Source of the DNA: Candidatus Saccharimonadota bacterium
Lineage (GTDB): Bacteria > Patescibacteriota > Saccharimonadia > Saccharimonadales > Saccharimonadaceae
NCBI GenBank assembly: GCA_009777795.1
Contig: WRLC01000005.1
Span: 1-55,590 of the forward strand
Length of the DNA stretch: 55,590 nucleotides
Reading direction: 5' to 3'
Under the pieces are notes generated by a model. The model was not told where the DNA came from. It did not search any database and saw only the letters and a program-made list of their open reading frames with translations. The position numbers and the translations under genes are program-made. Below, in pieces: positions 3,796-55,590 of the stretch; the stretch's first letter is position 1; each line of letters starts with the position of its first letter.

Positions 3796-3825
3796 TTGAC
3801 AAGCCACCACGCTAAAGCTTATAAT
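3796..3825 (+). promoter_or_regulatory. Consensus promoter of the G11-tract FISUMP gene
   Basis: Perfect TTGACA (3796-3801) and TATAAT (3820-3825) with an 18-bp spacer, the best-matching promoter in the window. Predicted start near 3832, leaving a leader of about 23 nt before the ATG at 3855. The gene is therefore expected to be strongly transcribed, with control at translation through the G tract. Confidence 0.8.
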
Positions 3826-3841
3826 ATAGGCAAAATGAGTC

Positions 3842-3849
3842 AAAAGGGG
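3842..3849 (+). promoter_or_regulatory. Shine-Dalgarno that selects the ATG at 3855
   Basis: AAAAGGGG ends 5 nt before the ATG at 3855. An earlier ATG at 3835 is followed by an in-frame TAA after eight codons. This supports 3855 as the real start, upstream of the G tract. Confidence 0.65.
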
Positions 3850-3854
3850 TTAAA

Positions 3855-5427
3855 ATGGTAAGAACAACTAGCGCGCTAATGTCGCACAATAAAAAGTCGG
3901 GGGGGGGGGTCTTTAGATGTCCGGCGGATCGCTTGGGCTATTCTCCTGCTCACAGCCTTTGCCCTATTTACTCAGCTACTAGCCGATAGCTTCCGCCCTA
4001 CCGTCGCCCAAAACGTCAACATCGCCGCCTCTGCCAGCTCTGGCTCGCTTACGATTACAGATAGCAATGCTGCGCCCTGCTCCACCTACAACACCTCAAC
4101 CAACACTTTAAACATCAGCACTCAAGTTGGCGCTATCTCCAATAACTGCCTCACCATCTCCGCCCAAACAACTAATCTTTACGGCTACACGTTGAGTATC
4201 GCGGGCCCTAGCAACGGCAATCTTGCGTTATCCGGGCAGCCATCTCAGGTCATTAACGCCAAAGCTGGCTCTATCGCCAGCCCAAGTGTCTTTGCCACTG
4301 GCAGCACCAGCACTTGGGGCTTTGCCATACCTAACGTACAGCTGCATGGCACCACCTCTACCGGTGGCTCTATCCCCAGTGGCTTCCAGCCTAGCTATAG
4401 CCTCCTGCCCAACAACAATACCACCAACACTGCCTTGTATGCCGCCGTCCCCACTACCGCCACGCCTTTTTCTGCAACTTCCACCGCCAACCCTTCTTCA
4501 CCCCACATTTATAATGTCTATTTTGCAACCCGCATCGCGCCAGCCGCTACAAGCGGCACCTACCTTGGCACCGTCACCATTTCTGGTGCGGTCAACCTGC
4601 CACCTTCCGGCCCTGATCTCAATGGTGTAGTCATGCAAGAAATCTCGCTCGATGGCCTTGCTACACCTTATGCCTGTCCAACTGAACGCACCCGAGTTGT
4701 TGACGCTAGGGATGATGCCAGTTATTGGATTAGGAGGATCAATGGCACCAGCGGCTTTGGCGGCGACCTCTGCTGGATGGAGACCAACCTAGCTTACGCC
4801 GGCGGCGGCGACAACTATTTTGGCGACGTCTTCAGTTGGGAAAGCAGCGATATTGGCGAGGATCTCCAAAACGGCGAAAGCTTCTATACTTCCGGCACTT
4901 CACCATTCTTTTACATCCCGCCCGGCGCCAACCGAACGACCGAACCAACCGACCCATCGATTTCGACCAACGGCACCGGCCAGTACGGCTATCTCTATAA
5001 CTGGTGTGCCGCAATGGGCGGACAGTGGGCCGCTTGTAGCTACGGCTATCTCTACCAGCCTATCCAAGACCGCAATCAAGGCGACGGCTACATTTTCAAC
5101 ATTTGCCCCGCAGGTTGGAGGCTACCTTCTGGCGGCTCCTCCACTGACGAGCTCTCTCTTCTCAACGACGTGCTTAACGGCGGCTCAACTGGTAGCCCAA
5201 CCGGGTTGCTTAACGGCGGCCTCTTTATGTACAGCGGCAGCTGGGGTGGCGGCTCTAGCATCGGTCCGGGTGTTTTCCACGGCCAAGGCTCTCAAGGCGA
5301 CTATTGGTCCTCTGACGTAGGTAGCCACCTTGCCGCCCGCCATCTCTGGTTCGATAACACCAACACTAGCCCAGAAAGCGGAACTTACACAACAACCGGT
5401 GCTGCTGTGCGCTGTGTTGCCGACTAA
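3855..5427 (+). CDS. Exported FISUMP-type surface protein, out of frame by one G (phase-variable candidate)
   Basis: From the ATG at 3855 the leader MVRTTSALMSHNKKS runs into an 11-G tract, then in the present frame stops at 3987 after 44 codons. The large frame to 5427 is entered only if one G is lost (10 G). The product would then be 523 residues: leader, GGG, a signal peptide (core AWAILLLTAFALFTQLLA), a beta-rich N-terminal region (to about 4640) and one FISUMP domain (CPTERTRVVDARD, DLCWMETNLAYAGGG, YGYLYNWC, CPAGWRLPSG, AVRCVAD). The main frame downstream of the tract has no ATG before 4192, already past the signal peptide, so export needs tract slippage or frameshifting. Function as variable surface adhesin is inference. 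Confidence 0.75.
3899..3909 (+). repeat. G11 homopolymer, candidate phase switch
   Basis: Eleven consecutive G, 15 codons after the ATG at 3855. With 10 G the start is in frame with the signal peptide; with 11 it is not. Tracts of this length are prone to slipped-strand mispairing in bacteria. Confidence 0.85.
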
Positions 5428-41483: not shown

Positions 41484-43792
41484 ATGACAAGCATCAAAAC
41501 GCAAAAGGTTATGGGGGGGGGCATTCGATGCTTGATTTCCACCCTCTCGCCCTCACCCGCCGAATAGCCACCGCCACTCTAGCCATCGCGACTTTCGCCA
41601 TTTTCTCCGCCCTCATCACCAACTCCTTCCAAAAGTCCTATGCCGACGACAGCCAGTTCGGCGCCTTCACCTACACCGGCGACCTCTCCTTTACCATCAG
41701 CGACGACTCCCCCTGCGTCAACTATGATACCGTGAGTAGCGAACTCCGCCTCGCCGTCCGCAATGGCTCGATTGCCGCCGACTGCCTCACCGCCACCATC
41801 AGCACCGATAACATCTTCGGCTACACCCTCTCCATCGTCGGCCCGTCCAGTGGCGAGCTCGAATCGTCCGACAGCCGCGTCATCCAGTCCACCACTGGCA
41901 CCATGGAATCTCCCGCCGTCTTCGCCACCCAAACCAGCGGCGGCGCTTGGGGCTTCGCCATTCCCAACGGCCAAATCCAAGGCTTCGACTTCGACTTTGA
42001 CTTCAGCTACCAAACCCTCGGCTCCACCAACACCACCAACACCGCCCGCTACGCCGCCGTCCCCACTATCCCCACTGCCTTCACCCAAACCACCACCGCC
42101 ACCACCACGCCCGACGCCTATAATATCTACTTCGCCGTTGCCGCCGGCTCCCTTCTCACCAGCGGCGAATACAGCGGCCAAATCACCATCTCTGCCGCCG
42201 CCAACCTGCCCATCGCCCGCACCGGCGACTTCATCCAATCCGTCGCCCTCTCCAACTGCCCCGCCACCCGCACCCGCGTCGCCGACGCCCGCGACGGCAA
42301 CACCTACTGGATCCGCCTCATCGGCGACCTCTGCTGGATGGAAACCAACCTCGCCTATGCCGGCGGCGGCAGCAACCTCTACGGCGACGCCATCTTCCTC
42401 ACCCAAGGCCGCTCCAACACCCCAACCGCACCCCTCTTCGACATCCCGCCCGGCGCCAACCCCACTGCCGCCACTACCGACCCCTCCCTCAGCACCGACG
42501 GCGGCGCCACCAACCCCCAATACGGCTACCTCTATAATTGGTGTGCTGCTATGGGCAACCAACCTGACGCTTGCCAGACTAGCACTGCCGCTCAACCCGA
42601 CCCAAACATCAGCGTCTGCCCCGCTGGCTGGCGACTCCCTACCGGCGACCCCACCACCGGTGAGTTCACTACCCTAGTTGACCAACTCGGCTGGACTTCC
42701 GGCGCCCCAACGCCACTCCTCACCAACGGCCTCTATATGTATGCCGGCTACTTCTGGAATGGCTCTTTCAACGATCAGGGGTCCAGCGGCAGCTATTGGT
42801 CTTCTACAGTCACCAATGCCGCCAATGCTTTCTATCTCACCTTCGTTACCGGCGGTGTCAACCCGGCGGGCAGCAACAGTAAGGGCTACGGCCTCTCCGT
42901 TCGTTGCGTCAGCGATGCCGCCGAACCAGCCGAACCACTGCCTTCACCCGCCCCTGCCCCAACCGGCGCCGACATCCAACGCATCACCCTCGACGGCACC
43001 CTCGGCAACTACTCCTGCCCCACTACCCGCACCCGAGTCCGCGATGCCCGTGACGGCTCGACCTATTGGGTCCGCCGCATCAACGGCACCCAAGCTGGCG
43101 GCGGCGACCTTTGCTGGATGGAAACCAACTTAGCCTATGCCGGTGGCGGCACCAACACCTACGGCGATGCTATCCCCGCCATGACCCTCGGCAACTCCCA
43201 CACCACCTCCACCCAAGCTTGCTATGGCAATAACCCCGCCGTGGTAGCTAACCCCACCACAAGGTGCTACTGGAACCCAACCGGCTCCAACCGCACCACC
43301 GGCACGACCGACCCTAGCACCTCGACCAACGGCGGCGCTACCAATCCTCAATACGGCTACTTCTACAACTGGTGCACCGCCATGAACCTACAAGCCGCCG
43401 CCTGCCAATCCTCCACCGCCACCCAACCCAATCAGTCCGTTAATGGCGGCACTGGCGCAGGCGCAACCGGCTCAACCCTCTACAACATCTGCCCCTCCGG
43501 CTGGAGGCTTCCTACCGGCAACACAGGCGGCGAATTCACCTTGCTTAATAACGCCATCAACTCCGGCTCCCTCACCACCCCAGCCGGCCTCTTAGCCAAC
43601 GGCCTCTATATGTATGCCGGCTACTTCGCCGATGGCGCGTTCAGTAATCAGGGCTCATTCGGCTACTCTTGGTCTTCTACTGTTGACAGTGCCACCAATG
43701 CATTTAGACTTTACTTCGGCAGCACATTTGTCGATCCCGCTTACGCGGTCAGCAAAGGTCGCGGCGTCCCCCTCCGCTGCGTCGCCCCTTAG
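41484..43792 (+). CDS. Two-domain FISUMP surface protein behind a G9 tract (phase-variable candidate)
   Basis: The Shine-Dalgarno-served ATG at 41484 reads MTSIKTQKVMGGG through nine G and, in the present frame, stops at 41565 after 27 codons. With 10 G it would read on as HSMLDFHPLA into a signal peptide and give a 769-residue protein. Unlike the locus at 3.9 kb, there is an internal ATG at 41528 that can start a 754-residue protein with intact signal peptide; the G tract, 6 nt before it, could act as a Shine-Dalgarno. The protein has a beta-rich region, then FISUMP domain 1 (SNCPATRTRVADARD to LSVRCVSDA), a Pro-rich linker, and domain 2 ending PLRCVAP. Likely exported surface protein. Confidence 0.8.
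41513..41521 (+). repeat. G9 homopolymer, candidate phase switch
   Basis: Nine G after codon 10 of the upstream start; one more G would join it to the signal peptide frame. The flanks (TATG before, CATTC and ATGC after) are the same as at 55537-55545. Confidence 0.8.
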
Positions 43793-55507: not shown

Positions 55508-55590
55508 ATGAGTAAAGCAAACACGCAAAATGCTATGGGGGGGGGCATTCAATGCCTAATCTCCGCTGCCTCATCCTCTCTCTCCTTAGC
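55508..55590 (+). CDS. Start of a FISUMP-like surface gene behind a G9 tract (truncated by window end)
   Basis: Only 83 bp are visible. The ATG at 55508 reads MSKANTQNAMGGG through nine G, closely matching the leader at 41484 (MTSIKTQKVMGGG) in sequence and spacing. The frame after the tract that begins MPNLRCLILSLLS (ATG at 55552) looks like a signal-peptide start. It becomes fused to 55508 only with 10 G. Identity as a FISUMP protein is inferred from this shared leader; no domain is visible. Confidence 0.6.
   Translation, partial: MSKANTQNAMGGGIQCLISAASSSLSL
55537..55545 (+). repeat. G9 homopolymer, candidate phase switch
   Basis: Nine G in the context TATG-G9-CATTC-A-ATGC, nearly identical to 41511-41531. 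Confidence 0.8.

Follow-up and report, generated by a model that had tools for sequence, protein, structure and literature searches.

The locus at 3.9 kb

The DNA considered here, referred to as the window, is a 55,590-nucleotide stretch of a Candidatus Saccharimonadota genome and makes up one of the seven contigs in a 559-kb assembly that is 63% complete. Near 3.9 kb on its forward strand lies a promoter that matches the consensus at 12 of 12 positions (TTGACA at 3796–3801, an 18-nt spacer, and TATAAT at 3820–3825). It is followed by an upstream open reading frame (ORF) of eight codons (3835–3861; MSQKGLKW, as read from the sequence), the TAA of which overlaps the ATG at 3855 (ATGGTAA). This second start is served by a Shine-Dalgarno (SD) sequence, AAGGGG, 6 nt before the ATG, and in the assembled state it opens a leader ORF (3855–3989; MVRTTSALMSHNKKSGGGVFRC...) that ends at a TAG at 3987–3989. 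Within the leader are the AATGTCGCACAAT box (3878–3890), identical in eight G11 leaders of the same genome and in one G9 leader of the congener G002, and a run of 11 G residues (3899–3909). The run is located about 15 codons downstream of the ATG, inside the 5′ coding part, and it separates the SD-served start from a signal-peptide region (3910–4008; SLDVRRIAWAILLLTAFALFTQLLADSFRPTVA) that lacks a start codon of its own.

The signal-peptide region was delimited from hydropathy and by eye, and secretion of the product is predicted from the hydropathy of this segment. The predicted mature protein (4009–5424) carries a C-terminal Fib_succ_major domain (PF09603; 4762–5418), identified by profile search above the curated cut-off (E 9.5e-9; 36.2 bits versus 33.9). 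A sequence-profile search of the PDB with the mature protein gave no match, and a structure prediction built from 13 sequences had a pLDDT of 43, which is too low to use. An Rfam scan of the window, including the leader, returned two tRNAs only.

The frame of the signal peptide opens after a TAA at 3877–3879 (i.e., from 3880), ends at a TAA at 5425–5427, and comprises 505 open codons behind the tract. With 11 G, it is one base out relative to the ATG at 3855, and the length of the tract sets whether it is read: 10 (or 7, or 13) G restore the frame. An earlier sequence-only reading had described the out-of-frame, SD-served start, the frame open upstream only from 3880, the consensus promoter, and the intact downstream frame, and all of these hold. 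It had also stated that no rescue start exists near the signal peptide, with a first in-frame ATG at 4192. The codon at 4192 is in fact TTG, and the earliest in-frame ATG occurs at 4633; since the stretch of this frame that leads from the tract to the hydrophobic core also lacks ATG, GTG and TTG codons, the point about a missing rescue start is strengthened. An ATG located 7 nt past the tract was considered as a rescue start and ruled out, as it is in the wrong frame both here and in L085. That slippage is needed for export, as was claimed, is correct for the assembled G11 allele.

G runs in the window

The forward strand of the window has three G runs of at least 9 nt, versus 0.008 expected under a strand-specific, first-order model with the tracts masked, and no C runs of at least 8 nt, versus 6.7 expected. 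The G11 run is not due to chance. A whole-window shuffle test for G8 was non-significant, but it is misleading, as the window is C-rich and the test treats its two strands together; the strand-specific estimate was used instead. All three G runs precede a hydrophobic N-terminal segment or, in the case of the run at the contig end, the beginning of one.

The two other runs are G9 leader tracts (41513–41521 and 55537–55545), each with an ATG 6 nt past the tract in the frame of the signal peptide, so the G run itself might serve as an SD sequence at these sites. An ATG at this distance could rescue translation at 41513 and in L087; at 3899, the tract is followed by no such in-frame ATG.

Paralogs, relatives and tract states

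The genome contains 30 matches to the 3.9-kb protein, and in roughly 12 of these genes a G9–G11 tract separates the signal peptide from a short leader that begins with ATG. Their leaders fall into several classes that are mutually unrelated in sequence, which points to a layout that was retained, or arrived at more than once, and not to a single copying event. Outside the source genome, relatives from four genomes (L096, L101, L105 and L121; 36–45% protein identity) likewise possess an equivalent tract and unrelated leader DNA, and the same arrangement of start and tract is found before other secreted genes in genomes of the same genus and the same taxonomic family. In other genera of that taxonomic family (L220–L231 in G006; L243–L281 in G014 and G023), many G9–G15 tracts occur, several of them before secreted-protein frames, and poly-G switches may thus be common in the lineage.

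A hand tally of 24 leader tracts from the source genome and its relatives, in which the start was defined as the ATG with the best SD among those whose frame stays open as far as the tract (an ambiguous choice in L073, L083 606 and L094), yielded 8 that are ON, 10 that need one additional G, and 6 that need one fewer. Such a split fits random length rather than a programmed shift of fixed direction. Two loci, L088 and L094, were at one point regarded as clearly ON and were dropped after counting, as their state hinges on the ATG chosen. In the source genome, about 2 of 13 tracts are ON, a proportion below one third, though not significantly so.

Several pairs of copies differ in the tract itself. 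For instance, L067 (G10) and L086 (G9) are equal at 59 of 60 upstream and 30 of 30 downstream bases; L221 (G11) and L226 (G14) are equal at 40 of 40 and 30 of 30 bases, respectively; L224 (G10) and L227 (G9) share all 60 downstream bases compared; and L222 (G10) and L225 (G11) have nearly identical flanks. Tract length therefore evolves faster than the surrounding sequence. All eight class-A boxes of the source genome, by comparison, are followed by exactly G11, a uniformity that is odd for freely slipping tracts. Strains with another tract length at the 3.9-kb locus, which the sequence-only reading had led one to expect, did not emerge: orthologous alleles were found neither in the genus, nor by box pattern in 40 relatives, nor in viral contigs.

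A number of contigs begin or end inside tract-bearing repeats (window 55537, L066:256 on the minus strand, L078:460, L087:555, L088:108 on the minus strand, L094:509, and L073:822 on the minus strand), so some family members are probably missing from the assembly or collapsed in it.

Selection on frames and stops

Frame-OFF paralogs show dN/dS values of 0.16–0.42 over their first 240 codons, counting unsaturated dS only, so at one time or another those frames must be in use; for the 3.9-kb gene, divergence from its paralogs is too great for this comparison. The two wrong frames just past the tract close in a mean of 6.3 codons, versus 27.9 codons elsewhere in the same genes. When the genes were recoded with the same residues and each gene's own synonymous codons, closure took 13.7 ± 1.5 codons, and not one of 3000 trials was as short as the observed 6.1. 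These early stops are taken to reflect selection that keeps the OFF state tight. At the 3.9-kb locus, a TAG at 3914–3916 shuts at once the frame that 12 G would give. In the assembled G11 allele, the wrong frame stays open for 25 codons, as the sister loci have TGA where this locus has TGT, and the stop trap is incomplete to this extent.

A gene for MutS1 was not found in the source genome or in nine relatives, five of which are at least 90% complete; it was found in 11 of 14 control genomes.

A diversity-generating retroelement in the same family

A reverse transcriptase (RT; PF00078, 50.1 bits) is encoded at C1:121208, beside a family member and an AAC-rich template repeat. The RT occupies L064:3403–4596, the template L064:4646–4829 on the minus strand, and the target variable region L064:2357–2540. 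Compared with the template, this variable region has mismatches at 22 of 52 A residues and at none of 132 other bases. When dispersed paralogs were pooled, including the 41.5-kb gene of the window, 45% of A residues were changed versus 9–12% of other bases. The family in the source genome thus combines adenine-specific variable regions with a nearby RT and template, as in a diversity-generating retroelement (DGR). A single template goes with numerous variable regions scattered among the Fib_succ genes, including three located in the window (42740–42909, 43613–43740 and 633–808). The adenine-specific changes in dispersed paralogs indicate that many proteins behind switches are also hypermutated by the retroelement.

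The 3.9-kb gene is not recognizable as a present DGR target, as only a 44-nt stretch matches, at 73% and with changes at bases other than A; the gene's C-terminal variable region and the template have drifted apart. For a second RT (C2:109828), a blastn comparison of its locus with the family loci revealed no template repeat.

Attenuator-like leaders and other tracts

At five loci, a class-A G11 leader is combined with a conserved, terminator-like hairpin (L062:489–650, L064:539–740, L074:562–740, L081:608–816, and L091:2974–3224 on the minus strand). A separately started gene follows the hairpin in each case, and a U-run is present in four of the five. Four of these genes encode Fib_succ proteins, while the fifth is a 742-aa ORF that appears FtsK-like by eye. 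The fold has z-scores of −5.6 and −5.2 for two of the leaders, four base pairs have changes on both sides, and the loop, GTCYCTTTAC, follows a pattern that occurs in the source genome only, among 13 searched. The hairpin has no match in Rfam. With 11 or 12 G, the leaders of these loci stop 3–20 nt beyond the tract. With 10 G, they run for 135–213 nt, which in four of the five loci takes their end slightly past the hairpin; no other reading crosses it. A tentative suggestion is that tract length might gate transcription too, with the ribosome melting the terminator or failing to do so. This would amount to phase-variable attenuation, partly before proteins diversified by the retroelement.

Other tracts in the lineage have different surroundings. 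G9–G14 tracts are apparently located between the −35 and −10 boxes at L117:2720, L213:2084, L215:2296 and L223:2123 (the last three on the minus strand); the example in L117 reads TTGACA-N9-G9-TATAAT. These are possible promoter-spacer switches. In several genomes of the same genus, a C9 or C10 tract (transcribed strand) is found just past a TATAAT-like box and is followed by a small CCTC...GAGG inverted repeat (L093:548, L198:953, L206:867, L207:829, L208:848 and 2159, and L209:832 and 2035). Since the length of this tract is nearly constant, it is perhaps not a switch.

A AATGTCGCACAATATATCTTTTGCGACATT-like palindrome with the shape of a dif site (11+6+11) occurs once per genome in four genomes (L289:1501 in the source genome, L286:1501, L287:1501 and L283:1501), and has a left arm that exactly matches the box at 3878–3890 of the window. 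An Rfam search of these loci returned nothing. The palindrome is a putative dif site, as judged from its shape.

A proposed poly-G switch and its alternatives

The 3.9-kb gene is probably a phase-variable (contingency) locus with a poly-G frame switch, of which the assembled G11 allele is the OFF state. Under this model, the strong promoter and the SD-served ATG would start a leader of about 15 codons that continues through the poly-G tract, and only a tract of 10 (or 7, or 13) G would bring this leader into frame with the signal peptide of the secreted protein that carries the Fib_succ_major domain. Slippage in the G tract during replication, in a lineage without detectable MutS1, would flip the gene ON and OFF, with stops directly past the tract making the OFF state tight. 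The switch would be one of about 12 in the genome, all on paralogous secreted proteins that are probably cell-surface binding proteins, and many members of the family are diversified by a DGR as well. What the sequence shows directly is the layout, the frames, the differing tract lengths of paralogs, selection on ORFs and stops, and the retroelement signature; replication slippage, reversibility at the 3.9-kb locus, surface display, and a binding role are inferred. Slippage in DNA replication is favoured over slippage in transcription or translation, since the needed shifts are mixed in direction and no downstream structure is present.

An alternative is programmed slippage at a fixed G11, in which RNA polymerase or the ribosome slips steadily, some in-frame protein is always made, and the DNA remains unchanged. 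The uniform G11 of the class-A boxes would suit this mechanism, as would the 10-G frame, which is open in most of them, and long homopolymers can slip during transcription. A paper on such slippage deals with A and T runs (PMC1088944). The mechanism is nevertheless unlikely, given that the needed shifts go in both directions, that 8 of the 24 leader tracts are already in frame, and that tract lengths vary between copies. Moreover, shuffled versions of the region past the 3.9-kb tract are more structured than the region itself (z = +2.0), and no stimulatory structure is seen there; with this fold, and with shifts in both directions among the leader tracts, the locus does not resemble a programmed ribosomal frameshift.

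The evidence on the 3.9-kb tract comes from one assembled allele, and homopolymer lengths in metagenome assemblies can be wrong. The true tract could accordingly be 10 G, with the gene simply ON and its leader glycine-rich. Homopolymer length is error-prone in short-read assemblies, and trouble with G tracts has been described (PMC9187656). An artefact is less probable still than fixed slippage, however, as many sister tracts also miss the frame, some in one direction and some in the other, across several assemblies made independently, and a wrong-frame stop trap would be purposeless in a gene that is always ON.

Finally, a dead gene, decaying after an inactivating frameshift, would be unreadable as this one is in its assembled form and might show a similarly drifted C-terminal variable region, but this is highly improbable for a frame with 505 open codons, a perfect promoter and many invariant positions retained with relatives, and given dN/dS values far below 1 among family members that are likewise frame-OFF. 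The earlier preference for a reversible OFF state over decay is well supported by the intact frame and the paralog dN/dS, together with the recurrent layout, the length differences and the stop trap.

The genomes of Patescibacteria are small, and many members of the group live on other microbes. If the poly-G switch is real, two sources of surface diversity would be stacked in such an organism, one determining which proteins are shown and the other what is bound, and this could matter for changing partners and for escaping phages. In addition, gene callers will mis-start or omit genes led by poly-G tracts, thereby concealing the family.

Relation to known systems

Intragenic poly-G/poly-C phase variation is established in Campylobacter jejuni and Neisseria meningitidis (PMC4965091, PMC5084427), where, as here, many loci per genome have a surface-related gene whose reading frame depends on a G tract in its 5′ coding part. 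The present case differs from these in that the tract lies between the start and the signal peptide, the proteins are secreted and belong to a multigene family in a Patescibacteria lineage, many of them are retroelement targets, and the wrong frames are shut by an enriched stop trap; it is also known from sequence alone. A comparable switch is that of Bifidobacterium breve, likewise a gut bacterium, in which a G tract either connects an upstream start with a startless downstream frame for a surface protein or keeps the two apart (PMC9187656). That switch concerns two sortase-pilus clusters and was measured by deep sequencing, whereas about 12 dispersed Fib_succ genes, known only as sequence, are involved here.

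DGRs have been described in candidate-phyla genomes (PMC10221324), and the RT, the AAC-rich template and the adenine-specific C-terminal changes in Fib_succ members resemble the variable proteins of those systems. The 3.9-kb gene differs in being no recognizable present target, and DGRs themselves make no ON/OFF switch. A search of the literature for poly-G phase variation in Saccharibacteria, Patescibacteria or candidate-phyla bacteria found no report, a weak result in that most subscription papers and all preprints were outside its reach. The nearest case was a hypervariable repeat gene of Gracilibacterium (PMC6851277), likewise a slippage-prone gene under diversifying pressure in a candidate-phyla bacterium. 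There, 9-mer in-frame repeats alter the length of the protein, while here a homopolymer sets the reading frame. The mechanism is therefore of a known kind, namely poly-G phase variation; what is new is its setting in a Patescibacteria lineage and its occurrence in a family that is also hypermutated by a retroelement.
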